A stretch of 64,000 nucleotides of DNA, from contig JAKQIT010000088.1 in assembly GCA_029556915.1 (NCBI GenBank), positions 1 through 64,000 of the forward strand. The letters are read 5' to 3'. Made by a program: the position numbers and the translations under genes. This DNA is from Pseudomonadota bacterium. GTDB lineage: Bacteria; Pseudomonadota; Gammaproteobacteria; Burkholderiales; Methylophilaceae. This document shows positions 535 through 56,762 of the stretch, piece by piece; positions within the stretch are counted from its first letter, which is position 1; the number at the start of each line of letters is the position of its first letter. A model generated the notes under the pieces. That model was not told the origin of the DNA. It ran no database searches and was given only the letters and a program-made list of their open reading frames with translations.

Positions 535-744
535 ATTTAAGGGTCATGTAGGTAAGTTTATTTTGCCAGCTAAGATGATGATGGTCTTTAAATAAAAAAT
601 CTTAATAATCTACAATTTAGATACAATAGTAGTTAATTTTTTGCTATTAATTAGTAAATTCTGATAAAGAACTTTTAATTAAAACAGCACTCTATTAAAC
701 AAGCGGAAAATTAAAACCGTATATTTAACGATAAGGAACTTACA

Positions 745-1662
745 ATGTTGAAGCATGTTAATAAGCAATTGGCAATAGTCGCGTTGCTAGCGATTACAAA
801 TAATTTCAGTTATGCCGCCGAGCCTGTATTGCCATCACTTAATCCAGATGAGGGTCGCATAGGCGAAGTTAGACGTGTGGCAGATGACTCAGAGTTTAAA
901 GTTTGTGCAGACCCAGATAACATGCCATTCTCAAACTTAAAGCAAGAAGGGTTTGAAGATAAAATTGCTGAGATATTAGCAAAAGATTTAGGTAAAAAGC
1001 TCACATATGCTTATGCATACAATCGACAAGGCTTTTTGAGAAACACACTCAATGCTAATCGATGTGATGTTGTTATGAGCACAACCTCTGATATTGATAC
1101 CATGCGAACATCAAAACCTTATTATCGCGCTGGGCACGTATATGTATGGCGTAAAGACAGTAACTTCAATATCACCAATTGGGATTCCCCAGATTTAAAA
1201 AAAGGTTTTATTGGTGTGGTTGATCACAGCCCAGCCACCATTCCAATGGATGCACATGGCTTAATTGCAAATGCACGTCCATATCGTATTCAACGTGATC
1301 TAAATCTGCCTCCTAGTTTCATGATTGATGATTTAGCTAAAGGTGAAATAGATATAGCAATTGCTTGGGGTCCAATCGGCGGCTACTATGCAAAACAATC
1401 TAAAATACCGATGGTGGTAGCACCTATTCCAGAGTACGAAAATGAAAATGTAAAAGGTAAGGAATACTGGAATATTTCAGTAGGTGTGCGCAAAAAAGAT
1501 AAAGAGCGCATGGCGATGATAAATGCAGCACTTGAAAGAAATCACGACAAAATAATGAAAGTATTAGATGACTATGGTATTCCACATGTTCCAGTAGTTG
1601 AAGGCGATAGCATTATGAAAGCCTATCAAAAGACAGGTGCAAGCACTATTGACAAAAAATAG
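745..1662 (+). CDS. xoxJ: XoxJ, periplasmic solute-binding-like protein of methanol dehydrogenase
   Basis: 305 residues. An N-terminal Sec signal (about residues 1-25, ending SYAA) is followed by a type II solute-binding fold with the family signature VCADPDNMPFSN near residue 52 and CDVVMSTTSD near residue 107. This is the quinoprotein dehydrogenase-associated binding protein family (MxaJ/XoxJ). Its members sit beside methanol dehydrogenase genes and are thought to help enzyme activation or maturation in the periplasm rather than to serve ABC uptake. No ABC transporter genes are nearby, which fits. The start is supported by AAGGA about 7 bases upstream. It is followed by two cytochrome cL genes. 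Confidence 0.88.
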   Translation: MLKHVNKQLAIVALLAITNNFSYAAEPVLPSLNPDEGRIGEVRRVADDSEFKVCADPDNMPFSNLKQEGFEDKIAEILAKDLGKKLTYAYAYNRQGFLRNTLNANRCDVVMSTTSDIDTMRTSKPYYRAGHVYVWRKDSNFNITNWDSPDLKKGFIGVVDHSPATIPMDAHGLIANARPYRIQRDLNLPPSFMIDDLAKGEIDIAIAWGPIGGYYAKQSKIPMVVAPIPEYENENVKGKEYWNISVGVRKKDKERMAMINAALERNHDKIMKVLDDYGIPHVPVVEGDSIMKAYQKTGASTIDKK

Positions 1663-51818: not shown

Positions 51819-53048
51819 ATGAGCATAGACCCCAAGCAAACTTACTTAGTCGGTGGTGCAGTCCGCGATGAATTGTTGGGTATTGCCGTACAAGATAAAG
51901 ATTACGTTGTGGTCGGCAGCACGCCAGAAGCCATGATGGCGGCTGGTTTTAAGCCAGTTGGTAAAGACTTCCCAGTTTTTTTACACCCAAACAATCACGA
52001 TGAATATGCGCTAGCACGCGCTGAGCGAAAAACCGCACGCGGCTATAAAGGTTTTATTGTGGATGCGGCAATCGATGTGACGCTTGAAGAGGATCTCGCC
52101 CGCCGTGATTTAACCATCAATGCAATAGCCAAAAATCTGGATGGCAGATTGATAGACCCTTATGGTGGTTTGGTTGATATTCAATCTAAAACATTGCGCC
52201 ATGTAAGCGCAGCTTTTGCAGAAGATCCAGTGCGTATTTTGCGTACAGCACGTTTTGCAGCGCGCTATGCTGACTTTACAGTTGCCCCTGAAACCATGCA
52301 GCTGATGCAAAAAATGGTACAAGATGGTGAGGTAGATGCTTTAGTGGCTGAGCGAGTATGGCAAGAGTTAGCCAAAGGCTTAATGGAAAGGGCGCCCAGT
52401 CGCATGTTTGAGGTGCTTCGTGCATGTGGTGCATTGCAAAAAATATTGCCTGAATTAAACAAACTGTGGGGTGTGCCGCAACCCGCTCAGTATCACCCAG
52501 AAATTGATACAGGTGTCCATATCATGATGGTGATAGATTACGCCGCCAATCAGCAGTTTAGCTTGCCAGTGCGCTACGCGGCATTGATGCACGATTTAGG
52601 TAAGGGGACAACGCCTGTAGAGGTGCTCCCCAGACATATTGGGCATGAAGCGCGTAGTGTGCACTTACTTAATGTTATAAATAAGCGTTTGCGAGTGCCC
52701 AATGAATGTAAAGAATTGGCAGTCATGGTGGCAAAATTTCACGGTAAATTACACACTGTTGAAGAAATGCGCCCAAGTACTTTGCTTAATTTTTTAATAG
52801 AATTAGATGCAATTCGCCAGCCAGAGCGCTTAAAAGATTTTTTGAAAGCTTGTGAAGCAGACTCACGTGGAAGAACAGGTTTTGAAAACCGATTATTGCC
52901 AGAAGCTGAAAAGTTAATGATGGCATTAGAAGCAGCTATGCGCATTGACGCAGGAAAGATTGCCAGCGGCATAGAGTTGCCAGAAAAAATCAAGCTAGCA
53001 GTGTATGAGGCCAGATTGATGGCTATCAAGCAAAGGCTAAAAAGTTAA
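51819..53048 (+). CDS. cca: CCA tRNA nucleotidyltransferase with HD domain
   Basis: 409 residues. The nucleotidyltransferase signature VGGAVRDELLGIAVQDKDYV is near residue 8, DLARRDLTINAIAKN near residue 91, and the C-terminal HD phosphohydrolase motif ALMHDLGKGTTPVE near residue 254. It adds or repairs the CCA end of tRNA; the HD domain gives phosphodiesterase/phosphatase activity. Confidence 0.95.
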   Translation: MSIDPKQTYLVGGAVRDELLGIAVQDKDYVVVGSTPEAMMAAGFKPVGKDFPVFLHPNNHDEYALARAERKTARGYKGFIVDAAIDVTLEEDLARRDLTINAIAKNLDGRLIDPYGGLVDIQSKTLRHVSAAFAEDPVRILRTARFAARYADFTVAPETMQLMQKMVQDGEVDALVAERVWQELAKGLMERAPSRMFEVLRACGALQKILPELNKLWGVPQPAQYHPEIDTGVHIMMVIDYAANQQFSLPVRYAALMHDLGKGTTPVEVLPRHIGHEARSVHLLNVINKRLRVPNECKELAVMVAKFHGKLHTVEEMRPSTLLNFLIELDAIRQPERLKDFLKACEADSRGRTGFENRLLPEAEKLMMALEAAMRIDAGKIASGIELPEKIKLAVYEARLMAIKQRLKS

Positions 53049-53131
53049 TTTTAAGTAAAAAATGATTGTAAACATTGTGTTATATTCATTTTGTGATATA
53101 AAGTGGCAAGATGTTTAAGGAGTTAATTAAG

Positions 53132-53455
53132 ATGCTTAACAAATTAAAAGTAATGCTATTTGGAGGTAAGCCAGATGTTGAGCGCCGAAGGGTCGCACGC
53201 GCAGGCAAAGCCCCCAAAGTGGGCGCACACATTGCACGGCAAAATATGGTGATAAAAATCACAGAAGCAATATCCGCAGACTTGTGGGAATGGTTTGTGT
53301 TGATGGGATGGCGCGAAGTGAGCATGCGGACTAATCGGCGCAAGTTGACCATGTTGCCACAATCTACTTATGTGACTATTGCGGGTGCAACAGTATCTGA
53401 TCGCGAAGCGATTTATAAAAAACTGATTAAAACTCACCAAAAACCTGACGCATAG
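53132..53455 (+). CDS. Small basic protein of unknown function
   Basis: 107 residues from ATG 53132, which has a strong AAGGAG 9 bases upstream; an ATG at 53111 in frame is less likely. Very basic, with RRRVARAGKAPKVGAHIARQ near residue 18, then a compact C-terminal half (LWEWFVLMGWREVSMRTNRR, YVTIAGATVSDREAIYKKL). No membrane segment or signal. Not recognised. It lies between cca and the ECF sigma factor, 54 bases before the latter, and could be a nucleic acid-binding protein. Confidence 0.6.
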   Translation: MLNKLKVMLFGGKPDVERRRVARAGKAPKVGAHIARQNMVIKITEAISADLWEWFVLMGWREVSMRTNRRKLTMLPQSTYVTIAGATVSDREAIYKKLIKTHQKPDA

Positions 53456-53509
53456 TCATGCTTCTTTCAAAATGTATTTGAGCATTTTGTATGTTGAAAA
53501 CTTGATGTA

Positions 53510-54064
53510 ATGACTTTGTCAGCCCACAATGACTGGCTAGAGGCGCACGGTGATTATTTGTATCGCTTTGCGTTGGCACGTTTACGTGACCCTCATTGGG
53601 CTGAAGATGCCGTACAAGAAACATTTTTGGCTGCGATTAAAGCGACTAATTTTGCTGAGCAGTCTTCTCAACGGACTTGGTTAACAGGCATTCTCAAACA
53701 CAAAATAATAGATGTGATGCGCAAAAGTCAACGTGAAGTCGTTGCATCCGATTTAATCAGCGATGAAGACGCTAATATGGATGATTTTTTTGACGATAAA
53801 GGGCACTGGCTGGAGCCGATACAAGCTTGGGGAATACCTGAAAACACATTGGAACAAAAGCAGTTTTTAAGCATCTTACAAGCTTGCATGGATAAGTTGC
53901 CACAAAAATTGTCGGCACTTTTTATCATGCGGGATGTGCATGAAGAAAATAATGAAGAAATTTGTAAGGAACTTGAAATTAGCACGACCAATGCTTGGGT
54001 GATGTTATATCGCGCCCGAATGCGTTTAAGAAAATGTTTAGAAATTAATTGGTTAGCGAGTTAA
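53510..54064 (+). CDS. ECF-type RNA polymerase sigma factor
   Basis: 184 residues. Region 2 at about 10-80 (DYLYRFALARLRDPHWAEDA, then QETFLAAIKA and TWLTGILKHKIIDVMRK); region 4 at about 120-180 (LPQKLSALFIMRDVHEENNE, then a helix-turn-helix ending YRARMRLRKCLE). No extra domains. It heads a five-gene run with anti-sigma, Cys-rich peptide, MNIO enzyme and partner, so it probably controls this cluster and itself. The upstream gap has a 7-bp inverted repeat (53468-53474, 53483-53489) but no clear housekeeping promoter. Confidence 0.88.
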   Translation: MTLSAHNDWLEAHGDYLYRFALARLRDPHWAEDAVQETFLAAIKATNFAEQSSQRTWLTGILKHKIIDVMRKSQREVVASDLISDEDANMDDFFDDKGHWLEPIQAWGIPENTLEQKQFLSILQACMDKLPQKLSALFIMRDVHEENNEEICKELEISTTNAWVMLYRARMRLRKCLEINWLAS

Positions 54065-54076
54065 AGACTTCATCAA

Positions 54077-54334
54077 ATGCGAATATTTATTTCATGTAAA
54101 TCTGCTAGCCAATTAGTTTCGCAATCGTTAGATGCGCCACTTACATGGCAAAGTCGCTTGGTTTTACGTTTGCATTTAGTCATATGTAAGTATTGCCGGC
54201 GATTCAGTCAGCAGTTAGCGGTATTGCGAAAAGCAGTTCAAAACATGGTGCAACTTACAGAAGCAGATGAAAGCATTCAACTTAAACCTGAAGCAAGACA
54301 GCGCATCATTAATGTAATAAAGCAAAACCAGTAG
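54077..54334 (+). CDS. Small zinc-finger-type anti-sigma factor
   Basis: 85 residues with no membrane segment. The H-x3-C-x2-C motif HLVICKYCRRF near residue 33-43, preceded by a Cys in ISCKSASQLVSQSLD, is the zf-HC2/ZAS arrangement of ECF anti-sigma factors. It starts 12 bases after the sigma gene. Being soluble and Cys/His-based, it may respond to metal or thiol stress in the cytoplasm. Partner is inferred from position. Confidence 0.78.
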   Translation: MRIFISCKSASQLVSQSLDAPLTWQSRLVLRLHLVICKYCRRFSQQLAVLRKAVQNMVQLTEADESIQLKPEARQRIINVIKQNQ

Positions 54335-54368
54335 TTATTTTTAATATTGATTAAAGGAATTATTCACA

Positions 54369-54749
54369 ATGAAAAACACACAAAAAGCATTATTAGTATC
54401 AGTAGGCGCAGCATTTGCACTTTCAGTGGCAGCGCCTGTCATGGCAGTTGAGAATCCATTTGCGCTCAAAACATTATCTTCAGGTTACCAAGTGGCGGAT
54501 AATCACGATACAAAAATGAAAGATGGCAAATGTGGCACTGGCAAATGTGGTGCTAATAAAAAATCTAAAGATGGCTCATGCCACCATGACAAAGCCAAAG
54601 AAGGCTCATGTAGCCATGATAAAGCCAAAGAGGGTTCATGCAGTCACGATAAGGCAAAAGAAGGTTCATGCTCAGCAGAGAAAATGAAAGAGGGCTCTTG
54701 TTCTGCTGAAAAAATGAAAGAAGGTAGCTGTGGTGGTGAGAAAAAATAA
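54369..54749 (+). CDS. hvfA: HvfA-like secreted Cys-rich RiPP precursor (candidate oxazolone/thioamide metallophore)
   Basis: 126 residues. A Sec signal (about 1-26, ending PVMA) is followed by a short linker and a core from about residue 55 with eight Cys: two GKCG motifs, one DGSC and five EGSC, set in near-identical 10-residue units such as HDKAKEGSCS. HvfA family peptides carry EGKCG motifs whose Cys are turned into oxazolone/thioamide copper ligands by HvfB-HvfC. Here Ser replaces Lys before most Cys. The next two genes encode the matching enzyme and partner. AAAGGA upstream supports the start. Modification and metal are inferred. Confidence 0.82.
   Translation: MKNTQKALLVSVGAAFALSVAAPVMAVENPFALKTLSSGYQVADNHDTKMKDGKCGTGKCGANKKSKDGSCHHDKAKEGSCSHDKAKEGSCSHDKAKEGSCSAEKMKEGSCSAEKMKEGSCGGEKK
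54571..54740 (+). repeat. In-frame 30-bp tandem repeats in the hvfA core
   Basis: Five full and one partial 30-bp unit, each encoding ten residues with one EGSC or DGSC. Units 1-3 (HDKAK type) and 4-5 (AEKMK type) are most alike within each group, which suggests stepwise local duplication. Confidence 0.85.
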
Positions 54750-54776
54750 TTTCACATGGCTGATTGAAGTAGCCTT

Positions 54777-55628
54777 GTGGCATTATTAAGCAACATTCAA
54801 GGCGTGGGTTTGGGGTTAAAGCGTGAGCTGATACCTCAAATCCAAACGCTTTATGGCGAAGAAGTCATTCGCAATATCAACTTTCTAGAAATCGCTCCCG
54901 AAAATTGGATTAACGTAGGTGGAAAATATAAAGACCAGCTGGATTGGTTTTTAGCACGTTACCCTATCATTTGTCATGGGCTTTGTCTTTCACTCGGTGG
55001 TTTAGAGCCACTCAATGTGGCCTTTATCAAGCAAGTCAAAGAATTTTTGCGCCAACATGAAATCCCCCTTTATACAGAACACTTAAGTTTTTGCAGTGAC
55101 GGTGGCTATTTGTATGACTTATTGCCAATTCCCTTTACTGAAGAGGCGGTGCATTATGTAGCGCAGCGTATTAAGCAAACCCAAGATATTCTGGGTCAGC
55201 AAATTGGCATTGAGAATGCCTCCAGCTATGTGGCCGCCCCAGTTTCTGAAATGGACGAACTCACTTTTCTTAAGGCGGTGATTGAAGAAGCCGATTGCTT
55301 GCTACATTTAGACATCAATAATATTTACGTAAACAGCGTGAATTTTAACTACGATCCACATCTGCTCTTGCGCGGGATTCCAAGCGAGCGGATTGTCTAT
55401 GCGCATGTAGCTGGGCATTATCAGGAGTCGCCAAATTTATTGGTGGATACGCATGGTGAAAATATAATTGACCCTGTATGGCAACTGCTTGAAGCAGCCT
55501 ACAAGCAATTTGGTGTATTTCCCACTTTGCTTGAGCGTGATTTAAACATTCCACCACTCACCACGCTCATGGCAGAGGTTGATAAAATCGCGAGTATTCA
55601 GCAAAAGTACTCGCTGAATCATGGCTGA
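54777..55628 (+). CDS. hvfB: HvfB-like DUF692 multinuclear non-heme iron (MNIO) RiPP enzyme
   Basis: 283 residues, starting at GTG 54777, 27 bases after the precursor gene. TIM-barrel DUF692 with the expected metal-ligand motifs in order: FLEIAPENWIN near residue 36, CHGLCLSLGG near residue 66, YTEHLSFCSDGG near residue 97, GIENASSY, LHLDINNIYVNSVNFNYDPH near residue 180, HVAGH and DTHGENI near residue 223. MNIO enzymes use two or three irons and oxygen to modify Cys in peptides. Overlap of 8 bases with the DUF2063 gene shows coupling. The substrate is presumably the neighbouring Cys-rich peptide. Confidence 0.88.
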   Translation: MALLSNIQGVGLGLKRELIPQIQTLYGEEVIRNINFLEIAPENWINVGGKYKDQLDWFLARYPIICHGLCLSLGGLEPLNVAFIKQVKEFLRQHEIPLYTEHLSFCSDGGYLYDLLPIPFTEEAVHYVAQRIKQTQDILGQQIGIENASSYVAAPVSEMDELTFLKAVIEEADCLLHLDINNIYVNSVNFNYDPHLLLRGIPSERIVYAHVAGHYQESPNLLVDTHGENIIDPVWQLLEAAYKQFGVFPTLLERDLNIPPLTTLMAEVDKIASIQQKYSLNHG

Positions 55629-56409
55629 TATGATGAAAACCGCAGCGTCTAAAATACAAGAACCTAGTTTTCAAGCATATCAACGTGCATTTACCCAGCA
55701 TATTCGCGACCCAAAAGCGCATTCGCGACCCCCAAACGTCCCTGCAAAGCGCATGGCGATATACACTGAAATCGTCTATAACAATATTGACAGCACCCTA
55801 TCTGCTTGTTTTCCTGTAGCAAAAAGCTTGCTTAGCGCAAAAAAGTGGCAGGTGCTGGTGCGCAGTTTTATGGCTGACTATCGCGCGAGCACCCCTTTTT
55901 TTAGAGAAATTTCTCAGCAGTTTTTACAGCATTTAGCGGCAATGGAAACAACAAAGCTAAAGTTGCCAGAATTTTTGCCTAGTTTATTGCACTATGAATG
56001 GGTAGAGCTAGCATTGTCTGTGCTTGATGTGGCGGTTGCGGATAACGCGCCACAAGATGTTTTACTCGCGCCATTAATCCTCAACCCAGCGCTATATTTA
56101 TTGCAATATGCTTATCCCGTGCATCAAATATCTGTGGATTTTCAGCCAAAAAAACCCGCCAAAATGCCCACGTATTTATTGGTCTTTAGAAACGCCAATC
56201 ATCAAATACAATTTATAGAACTTAACCCGATTACGTTTCAGCTTGCGAGCATATTGCAAAACGCAAGCCTGACGGGTGAGCAAGTTTTGCAAAAATTAGC
56301 CGCTCAAAATCCACAAATTACCCCTGAAGTTGTACTGCAATTTGGTGCACAAACACTTGCCGAACTCGCTAAAAAAGAAGTGATTTTTAGTACAAAAAAA
56401 GCCCAATAA
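55621..56409 (+). CDS. hvfC: HvfC-like DUF2063 partner protein of the MNIO enzyme
   Basis: 262 residues. N-terminal DUF2063 helical domain (about 10-120): SFQAYQRAFTQHIRDP, RMAIYTEIVYNNIDSTLSAC, then FPVAKSLL and STPFFREISQQFLQHL. The C-terminal half is a beta-rich domain resembling a RiPP recognition element. It binds the precursor and delivers it to HvfB. Last gene of the cluster: the DoxX-like hvfD of Haemophilus is absent. A short hairpin overlaps its stop codon. Confidence 0.85.
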   Translation: MADMMKTAASKIQEPSFQAYQRAFTQHIRDPKAHSRPPNVPAKRMAIYTEIVYNNIDSTLSACFPVAKSLLSAKKWQVLVRSFMADYRASTPFFREISQQFLQHLAAMETTKLKLPEFLPSLLHYEWVELALSVLDVAVADNAPQDVLLAPLILNPALYLLQYAYPVHQISVDFQPKKPAKMPTYLLVFRNANHQIQFIELNPITFQLASILQNASLTGEQVLQKLAAQNPQITPEVVLQFGAQTLAELAKKEVIFSTKKAQ

Positions 56410-56420
56410 ATGGGCGTTAT
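56394..56420 (+). terminator. Weak terminator at the end of hvfC
   Basis: Stem GCCCA (56401-56405) with TGGGC (56411-56415), flanked by A's 5' and GTTATTTT 3'. The stem is short and includes the stop codon, so efficiency is doubtful. Confidence 0.4.
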
Positions 56421-56435
56421 TTTACAGATATCAAT

Positions 56436-56506
56436 TCAGCACCTCTGTAAGCCAGTATCCATGAGGCTTCCAGAGGCATAAAAATCTCTCGAGAGATTTT
56501 ATAGCA
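56436..56506 (-). repeat. Dispersed hairpin repeat, copy 7
   Basis: Core CCTCTGTAAGCC-loop-GGCTTCCAGAGG, then ATAAAAATCTCTCGAGAGATTTTA, where the tail has become a palindrome of its own. Located between the convergent hvfC and DUF1289 genes. Confidence 0.8.
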
Positions 56507-56570
56507 AAAATAAAACTTATTTTAACGCATCAAAATCGGCTGGTGAGTGCCATTAAATTAGCAAGGAATG

Positions 56571-56762
56571 CTAATCAAAACTATCATTCATTCGCGTATC
56601 TAGCGCACGTAAAACCGCAATCTTTTCGGCATTGGTTTTATCCCACCAATTTTTTATTTCATCAGCAGTACGGTAGCAACCCAAGCAAAAACCCGTAGCT
56701 TCATCTAAAGTGCACACCCCAACACAGGGGCTTTCAACTTCTTGATCTGTTTCGTTCGACAT
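56571..56762 (-). CDS. DUF1289 family Fe-S-type small protein
   Basis: 63 residues. The four-Cys pattern SPCVGVCTLDEATGFCLGC near residue 11-29, followed by YRTADEIKNWW, defines DUF1289, a common proteobacterial family of unknown function. It starts 25 bases after secA on the same strand, so it is probably co-transcribed. Repeat copy 7 lies beyond its 3' end. Confidence 0.88.
   Translation of the reverse strand: MSNETDQEVESPCVGVCTLDEATGFCLGCYRTADEIKNWWDKTNAEKIAVLRALDTRMNDSFD

Follow-up and report, generated by a model that had tools for sequence, protein, structure and literature searches.

At positions 53510-56409 of the window, the 64,000-nucleotide stretch of contig JAKQIT010000088.1 (assembly GCA_029556915.1, family Methylophilaceae) analyzed here, lie five genes for an extracytoplasmic function (ECF) sigma factor, a zinc-binding anti-sigma (ZAS) protein, a cysteine-rich precursor peptide, a multinuclear nonheme iron-dependent oxidative enzyme (MNIO) of the HvfB family, and its DUF2063/HvfC partner. 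The main subject of this report is a promoter-like element, TGTAAGG-N15-CGACCAA, that lies within the sigma factor gene itself, upstream of the other four genes (Table 1). All five open reading frames (ORFs) are open on the + strand and together fill this interval. An earlier note on this DNA had named five same-strand genes in tight order and assigned their families, and the ORFs and profile matches confirm both. The peptide gene, hvfA, starts 34 nt after the anti-sigma gene, and the MNIO and DUF2063 genes overlap by 8 nt.

Table 1. Features of the operon and the putative control element (window coordinates)
Feature	Coordinates	Strand	Evidence
ECF sigma factor, 184 aa	53510..54064	+	TIGR02943, 206.3 bits (cutoff 162.2); Sigma70_r2 and Sigma70_r4_2
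Intragenic ECF-type promoter-like element, TGTAAGG-N15-CGACCAA	53963-53991	+	-35 at 53963-53969, -10 at 53985-53991; upstream of anti-sigma-hvfABC
Soluble ZAS anti-sigma factor, 85 aa	54077..54334	+	NF052368, 70.4 bits (cutoff 50); zf-HC2
Precursor peptide, 126 aa, 8 Cys	54369..54749	+	Signal peptide by eye; NF050188 below cutoff
30-nt tandem repeats, ten-residue EGSC units	54567..54725	+	Two Tandem Repeats Finder rows, period 30, 3.5 and 2.3 copies
MNIO (DUF692, HvfB family), maturase of a ribosomally synthesized and posttranslationally modified peptide (RiPP), GTG start	54777..55628	+	PF05114; HvfB NF003818, 398.1 bits (cutoff 360)
DUF2063/HvfC (PME1) partner, NGO1945 C-terminal domain	55621..56409	+	HvfC NF050145, 271.9 bits (cutoff 142)

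The cluster has the parts of a captophorin-type (MNIO-PME1) system: an HvfB-family MNIO, an adjoining DUF2063/PME1 partner, and a Cys-rich precursor with a Sec signal alongside. An HvfABC-type RiPP cluster had been called from the letters of the DNA, and this call held, with the HvfB and HvfC models passed and a Cys-repeat precursor adjoining. The source genome has one PF05114 match; among solved structures, chain 3bww is closest to the MNIO and chain 3dee to the DUF2063 partner. Assignment as a bufferin (Buf1) was rejected, since there was no DUF2282 match and the BufB model NF050167 gave 257.6 bits, below its cutoff of 310, as was assignment as a methanobactin, for which the MbnB-type model TIGR04159 gave 41.5 bits against a cutoff of 325. 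The biosynthetic kind is one already known, captophorin (oxazolin/fontiphorin/gonophorin), with a divergent peptide in the window.

In the anti-sigma factor the zinc pattern is C7-x25-H33-x3-C37-x2-C40, a complete ZAS pattern of the MseR/HrsE type, for which we used C/H-x23-26-H-x3-C-x2-C with no membrane segment; such a segment is absent as judged by eye. With NF052368 over its cutoff, this bears out the earlier description of a soluble H-x3-C-x2-C anti-sigma factor. The ZAS pattern recurs in 84 of the 89 anti-sigma ORFs of Methylophilaceae loci.

The precursor runs from a signal peptide (by eye) through a NPFALKTLSSGYQVAD stretch and DGKCGTGKCG to one DGSC and five EGSC repeats, with Cys contexts of DGKCG, TGKCG, DGSCH, EGSCS (four times), and EGSCG. 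Set against the EGKCG motif of Buf_EGKCG/oxazolin precursors, it has DGKCG and TGKCG once each and D/EGSC at the other six sites. Repeats in relatives range from EGKC to EGSC, the window peptide being at the Ser end, and a lenient NPF-x4-L-x2-GY pattern follows the signal peptide in 99 of 102 family peptides. Among the 573 Cys of these peptides, the preceding residue is most often Lys (320), Ser (149), or Ala (49), and the following residue Gly (273), Ser (225), or His (42). Precursors outside the family, counted only where the search pattern found one (e.g., Thiobacillus L284, Nitrosomonas L296, Marinobacterium L297, and Microbulbifer L319), mostly carry EGKCG, with a similar NPF...GY stretch before the repeats, a likeness between the window peptide and the EGKCG precursors of other Pseudomonadota.

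A conserved element within the sigma factor gene

Relatives were sought in 187 Methylophilaceae genomes, 113 of which had an MNIO match, and 120 loci were fetched. The hvfB-type set consists of 103 loci including the window; BufB-type loci (L135-L151) and L134, where no MNIO ORF was called, fall outside it. Sigma, anti-sigma, peptide, MNIO, and HvfC stand in the window's order in 87 of the 103, an order that is beyond chance. Four of the 87 (L051, L058, L070, and L078) have a broken or short sigma frame, hvfC is split in L106, and anti-sigma and hvfA are 1.4 kb apart in L133. The remaining 16 loci lack this sigma gene within the fetched stretch, 14 of them the anti-sigma gene as well, and several end with their contigs. 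The earlier note had proposed a search of related genomes for this five-gene order and had named, as evidence against its reading, clusters in which the peptide is consistently apart from the DUF692/DUF2063 pair; the order was found, and no such separation was seen in hvfB-type loci.

The element sits in frame over the region 4.2 codons of the sigma gene, which encode CKELEISTTN in the window and CKELxIxxTN in the family. With CGACCAA allowed as the -10, it is present in 84 of 86 Methylophilaceae loci. The exact CGACTA form is intragenic only in L043, L057, and L070, and the idea that the match was a coding coincidence was dropped once CGACCAA was allowed and the codon test described below had followed. 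One of the two exceptions, L133, has copies with a CGT-type -10 before sigma (-240) and before hvfA (-111); in the other, L070, the sigma frame is broken, yet the element is retained in the DNA beyond the break. Outside the gene, the motif (at least 11/14) is nearly absent: 85 of 86 loci have none in the 400 nt preceding sigma, and 100 of 101 have none in the 160 nt preceding hvfA, with L133 the exception both times. In an unbiased dyad search, the coding end of the neighboring gene dominated upstream of sigma (by eye), and a weak excess appeared upstream of hvfA. The claim that the cluster is under its own sigma factor thus stands only in part and in an unexpected form: a putative element exists, inside the sigma gene, and the regions before sigma and hvfA, almost everywhere, hold none. 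A promoter inside the sigma gene would explain the empty search upstream of the operon.

A codon test bears on whether the protein alone is conserved. Across 82 of the 86 family sigma genes (score of at least 200) and 166 codon columns, third bases are invariant in just three columns, all inside the element. Cys152 is TGT in 82/82; Lys153 is AAG in 82/82, where 27.9 would be expected with G; and codon 159 is NCG in 82/82, where 20.5 would be expected, although it may encode Ala, Thr, Pro, or Ser. The fixed bases of the element cover four third positions, three of which are the invariant ones, the fourth being the variable -10 base. The chance that three of 166 columns would fall within those four is 4 in 748,660, a figure that ignores kinship. 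One of the invariant third bases belongs to a codon whose amino acid varies, and in our view the conservation is not at the protein level alone.

Beyond the family, 34 sigma genes of the same clade, with third-position G/C of 42-90%, have TGT at Cys152 in 33 and TGC at Cys126 in 29; codon 159 ends in G in 32 and codon 153 in 31. A few other columns are equally uniform there along the G/C bias, so it is TGT, kept against that bias, that carries weight. Sulfurisoma (L304) has Ser in place of Thr and, in the element, CGTCTAA as in Neisseria. The element is strongly supported as conserved DNA, and its role as a promoter is putative.

Copies elsewhere and the sigma factor that may read them

Our starting scan of loci used a Neisseria-like pattern. 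In the source genome, TGTAAGK-N15-CGACYAA has four matches, at the sigma gene, msrP, hvfX, and a DUF1223 gene, and the reversed pattern has none; weaker sites are missed by this pattern, and N14 and N16 variants are also present (C4 and C16). Two of the four sites are 1.8 kb apart on another contig, each about 60 nt before its gene, msrP or hvfX. The msrP gene (NF003767, 479.3 bits against 207) is followed by msrQ (NF003831, 179.2 against 130), and HvfX, the functional partner of HvfABC that is absent from the operon, is encoded beside msrPQ (NF050144, 132 bits against 80). The fourth site leaves 27 nt between the end of its -10 and the start of a DUF1223 gene (203.2 bits against 30.7). This gene lies at 688-1473 (-) of L371, and its secreted protein has a CSSC motif.

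The pattern of sites at msrP and hvfX recurs in a set of 41 HvfX loci, consisting of the source genome's own locus and 40 fetched in score order from 74 genomes over the cutoff; loci already in the set were passed over, and two genomes are represented twice. The genes msrP, msrQ, and hvfX are collinear in 36 of the 41. TGTAAGG-N15-CG[AT]CTAA is matched at 13/14 or better ahead of 32 of 36 msrP and 25 of 41 hvfX genes, none of the 36 msrQ upstream regions reaches 12/14, and mononucleotide shuffles give 0.06 expected per class at 12/14 or better. As the motif was partly derived from msrP and hvfX sites, the msrQ and shuffle controls outweigh the absolute counts. In other genomes, hvfX follows hvfC or is divergent from sigma. 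The exact CGACCAA form is found in 91 of the 187 genomes, and the reversed pattern occurs twice overall. In 6 of 17 loci with BufB-like MNIO genes (L136-L140 and L147), GTAAGG-N15-CGACTA also occurs, 483-823 nt ahead of the MNIO gene, so that one sigma factor may control two metallophore families. Two loci (L214, 1605-2988, and L219, 2582-3965, in the orientation of hvfX) have a second sigma/anti-sigma pair directly before hvfX; this pair has no intragenic element of at least 12/14, and TGTAAGK-N15-CGATTAA stands upstream of its sigma gene in L219.

Among the matches listed for the source genome, a single place exceeds the TIGR02943 cutoff, the sigma factor of the window. A sigma factor over this cutoff is present in 65 of 69 genomes with HvfX of at least 100 bits, against 29 of the other 118; in genomes with hvfB, HvfX accompanies the sigma factor in 65 of 86 and is present in 2 of 18 without it, counts not corrected for kinship. 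Control of the Caulobacter SigF/NrsF type was rejected, as NrsF had no match in the source genome; it is over its cutoff in 6 of the 187 genomes.

To the family we added an architecture survey of 61 further sigma genes, none dropped, scoring the element as at least 12/14 in frame near the 3' end. It is present in 15 of 16 genes where an MNIO gene lies downstream on the same strand (the exception is L361), in 0 of 12 where the MNIO gene lies upstream in a Neisseria-like, sigma-last order, in 3 of 7 with the MNIO gene on the other strand, and in 19 of 26 with no MNIO gene in the stretch examined. L364 has no intragenic copy and one copy in the sigma/anti-sigma gap, just before the anti-sigma gene. 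In L335, from another family of the order, thioredoxin and DsbD_TM genes take the place of hvfABC behind the same sigma/anti-sigma unit, which has the intragenic copy and further ones.

A putative self-nested switch and its alternatives

The genes, their families and order, and the motif with its conservation and positions are read directly from the DNA. On this basis, we consider it probable that the window carries a metallophore operon of the captophorin (HvfABC-like) type whose sigma gene contains a self-nested switch. In unstressed cells, the sigma factor would be made and held by the cytoplasmic zinc-thiol anti-sigma factor, and thiol-reactive stress, presumably from a metal or an oxidant, would free it. 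RNA polymerase carrying this sigma would then start at TGTAAGK-N15-CGACYAA. The intragenic copy would drive anti-sigma-hvfA-hvfB-hvfC, raising peptide, two-protein maturase, and brake together, and the sigma factor itself would not be amplified. Other copies would drive msrPQ, for periplasmic methionine-sulfoxide repair, along with hvfX and the secreted DUF1223 gene. HvfB and HvfC would convert Cys of the peptide, most likely to 5-thiooxazoles, before Sec export, and the product would be a periplasmic peptide that may bind copper. It is also reasonably likely that across a large clade of TIGR02943 sigma genes, in Burkholderiales and relatives, the DNA for the sigma factor's -35-reading domain is a promoter read by that same sigma. 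Coding and regulation would then be locked, with protein changes tolerated mainly where the promoter is kept, and stress would induce the brake and the output but not the sigma factor.

Several observations weigh against this reading. With the HvfA model NF050188, the peptide scores a weak 25.6 bits and misses the cutoff of 95; it is HvfA-like, not HvfA by the curated cutoff. Gly follows just 3 of its 8 Cys, and, with FonBC taking little other than Gly or Ala at that position (PMC13097082), not all of them need be modified. A few genomes have the motif and no intact TIGR02943 sigma gene that we found (e.g., G166, 89% complete), and the source genome has 18 places over the Sigma70_r4_2 cutoff, so other sigma factors may read the site. 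How the sigma gene itself would be transcribed is not helped by the + strand of 52900-53510 upstream of it, which has no sigma-70-like match. In 71 of 82 genes, the intragenic copy has CGACC at its -10; the synonymous ACT, which gives the CGACTAA of most msrP and hvfX sites, is used in 2 of 82. Retention of CGACC despite this choice hints that the intragenic -10 is kept weaker. The element could also reflect a DNA-level constraint of another sort. Finally, on a tree of 78 sigma proteins (the 61 surveyed plus 17 of 18 rows chosen from the family, L133 having been excluded on its score), the contrast between gene order and element amounts to two changes and two independent pairs, so the two could be inherited together. 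The sigma-first versus sigma-last contrast, close to a single-clade trait on this tree, was therefore dropped as decisive support.

One alternative is that the conserved bases are a by-product of CKELxIxxTN and codon habit, the hvf operon having a housekeeping promoter ahead of sigma and no sigma control. The near-absence of the motif from the regions before sigma and hvfA would suit this, as would an intragenic -10 that is not the commonest form and a sigma gene that often directly adjoins the gene before it (by eye). Codon habit, however, fits poorly with invariant third bases at codons 152, 153, and 159 as the sole such columns, with NCG at a codon whose amino acid changes, and with TGT kept in relatives with G/C-rich third positions; the motif also precedes msrP, hvfX, and the DUF1223 gene, and the proposed housekeeping promoter has no sigma-70-like match upstream of sigma. 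We regard this explanation as very improbable. Nearly as improbable is that the promoter is real but serves negative feedback through the anti-sigma factor only, with read-through into hvfABC incidental. The survey lends this some substance, with the element in most sigma/anti-sigma pairs that lack an MNIO gene nearby, and so does Corynebacterium glutamicum, where SigH-controlled PrshA inside sigH drives rshA, the anti-sigma gene, alone (PMC3489674). Against it stand the close spacing of hvfA behind the anti-sigma gene in the window, the lack of a motif in the 160 nt before hvfA, and the separated hvfA of L133, which has a copy of its own 111 nt upstream.

The chemistry of the peptide allows a further alternative. 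The earlier note had Cys turned into oxazolone/thioamide pairs; that assignment, made for oxazolin, has been revised to 5-thiooxazole (PMC13097082, PMC13419390). According to the available text of the same sources, 5-thiooxazoles are carried by fontiphorin, oxazolin, and gonophorin, and such clusters make captophorins. Most Cys of the window peptide might instead stay unmodified, with the Ser-Cys repeats soaking up oxidants or metals as a thiol sponge and the MNIO acting on the two Lys-Cys-Gly sites only. Six of the window's Cys are indeed in a D/EGSC context; of the residues tried instead of Gly behind Cys, only Ala did not block FonBC (one Cys-Tyr variant was modified once; PMC13097082); and the presence of the motif ahead of msrPQ suggests an oxidant as the stress. 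On the other side, FonBC allowed Ala, Arg, or Thr in front of Cys (PMC13097082), and across the family, in loci that also encode MNIO and HvfC, Ser follows Cys nearly as often as Gly does, which makes it probable that the cognate enzymes accept Ser. We think the sponge unlikely, although it deserves more weight than the two alternatives above, and favor conversion of the Cys by HvfB and HvfC.

Much of this arrangement has precedent in published systems, which we compare as far as their available text allows. Oxazolin/HvfABCX of Haemophilus, FonABC, and NgoABC share with the source genome a Sec-exported Cys-repeat precursor, an HvfB-type MNIO, HvfC/PME1, and HvfX in the same genome. Compared with captophorins (Buf_EGKCG), the window differs in having six of eight Cys after Ser rather than Lys in ten-residue repeats, HvfX beside msrPQ in the source genome rather than in the operon, and a sigma/anti-sigma pair at the head of the operon. 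For EGKCG clusters, the available description names no sigma factor and reports Oxidored_molyb and ferric-reductase genes in small numbers (PMC12452194); these are the domains of MsrP and MsrQ. In the same source, genes for sigma and NrsF are reported for Buf1 clusters and not for Buf2.

In Neisseria, one operon (NMB2140-2145/NGO1948-1943) holds sigmaE, the ZAS anti-sigma factor MseR, DoxX, DUF692, DUF2063, and a periplasmic protein, which we take as the precursor, and the sigmaE regulon includes the methionine sulfoxide reductase msrA/B (PMC2893595, PMC3240639, PMC2954202). Sigma/anti-sigma control of such a cluster is therefore not new. The sigmaE promoter, -35 GTMAGBWTT and -10 CGTCTAAH (PMC2893595), resembles the window motif. 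In that operon the genes for sigma and MseR come last, with the published promoter upstream of the DoxX gene, whereas in the window sigma and anti-sigma open the operon and the element is inside the sigma gene; the 12 sigma-last loci without an intragenic element come from the order and beyond, and the Neisseria side of this comparison is known from publications. In Haemophilus, RpoE2-HrsE controls msrAB (PMC7907618). In Caulobacter, a single ECF sigma factor, sigmaF with NrsF, controls DUF692/DUF2063/DoxX (bufferin) operons and the MsrP-like YedY (PMC3511200), but the anti-sigma factor is NrsF, the precursors are DUF2282 proteins, and the promoter is GTAACC-N16-CGAA. Closest to the proposed switch is sigH-rshA of C. 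glutamicum, where a sigma-dependent promoter inside the sigma gene also makes the anti-sigma factor; it differs in promoter sequence, in having no biosynthetic operon, and in that the account available reports no codon-level conservation (PMC3489674).

The new part is the control element; the cluster type and its sigma/anti-sigma control were already known. A literature search that left aside most subscription papers gave, in the text available (including PMC13171946 and PMC8103513), no account of a promoter conserved in the codons of sigma region 4.2. The stretch is an unusually clean case of protein-coding sequence constrained as DNA, and, if the proposed switch is right, a similar second look could be taken at other ECF sigma factors described as not autoregulated. 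Thiooxazole metallophores are widespread, and the switching of their operons is known in few species. The predicted four-site regulon would join a copper-peptide operon to HvfX, MsrPQ, and DUF1223, tying metallophore making to periplasmic oxidative repair and making the question of the signal testable in methylotrophs.

Methylotrophic setting and flanking sequence

The source organism had been labeled a methylotroph, and support for this comes from a MoxJ-2-type gene (274.6 bits against a cutoff of 212.15), two genes with cytochrome c(L) matches below the cutoff (90.9 and 93.5 against 147.8), a formate dehydrogenase, and relatives named Methylotenera, Methylophilus, and Methylovorus. The suggestion of a special need tied to quinoprotein methylotrophy found no support, since the module also occurs in records named Thiobacillus, Sulfurisoma, and Gallionellales, which are not known as methylotrophs. 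The cytochrome c(L)-like genes are neighbors at 1864-2999 of the window, and about 130 C-terminal residues are very similar by eye, which looks like a duplication.

A scan of 52900-56600 for sigma-70 promoters and terminators found no excess over shuffles (7 against 9.0 and 4 against 4.2, respectively). A 5-pair stem-loop, GCCCAATAAATGGGC, spans the hvfC stop at 56401-56415; such stems are no commoner here than in shuffles. Upstream of the operon, a 114-aa ORF at 53111-53455 has no Pfam or NCBIfam match and no relative among the 120 fetched loci; many relatives have at this position a gene ending in ...AETIWQAQRN, which we take to be DUF1841. MNIO ORFs of 553 and 579 aa (L144 and L145) and an HvfC ORF of 579 aa (L284) suggest fused proteins.

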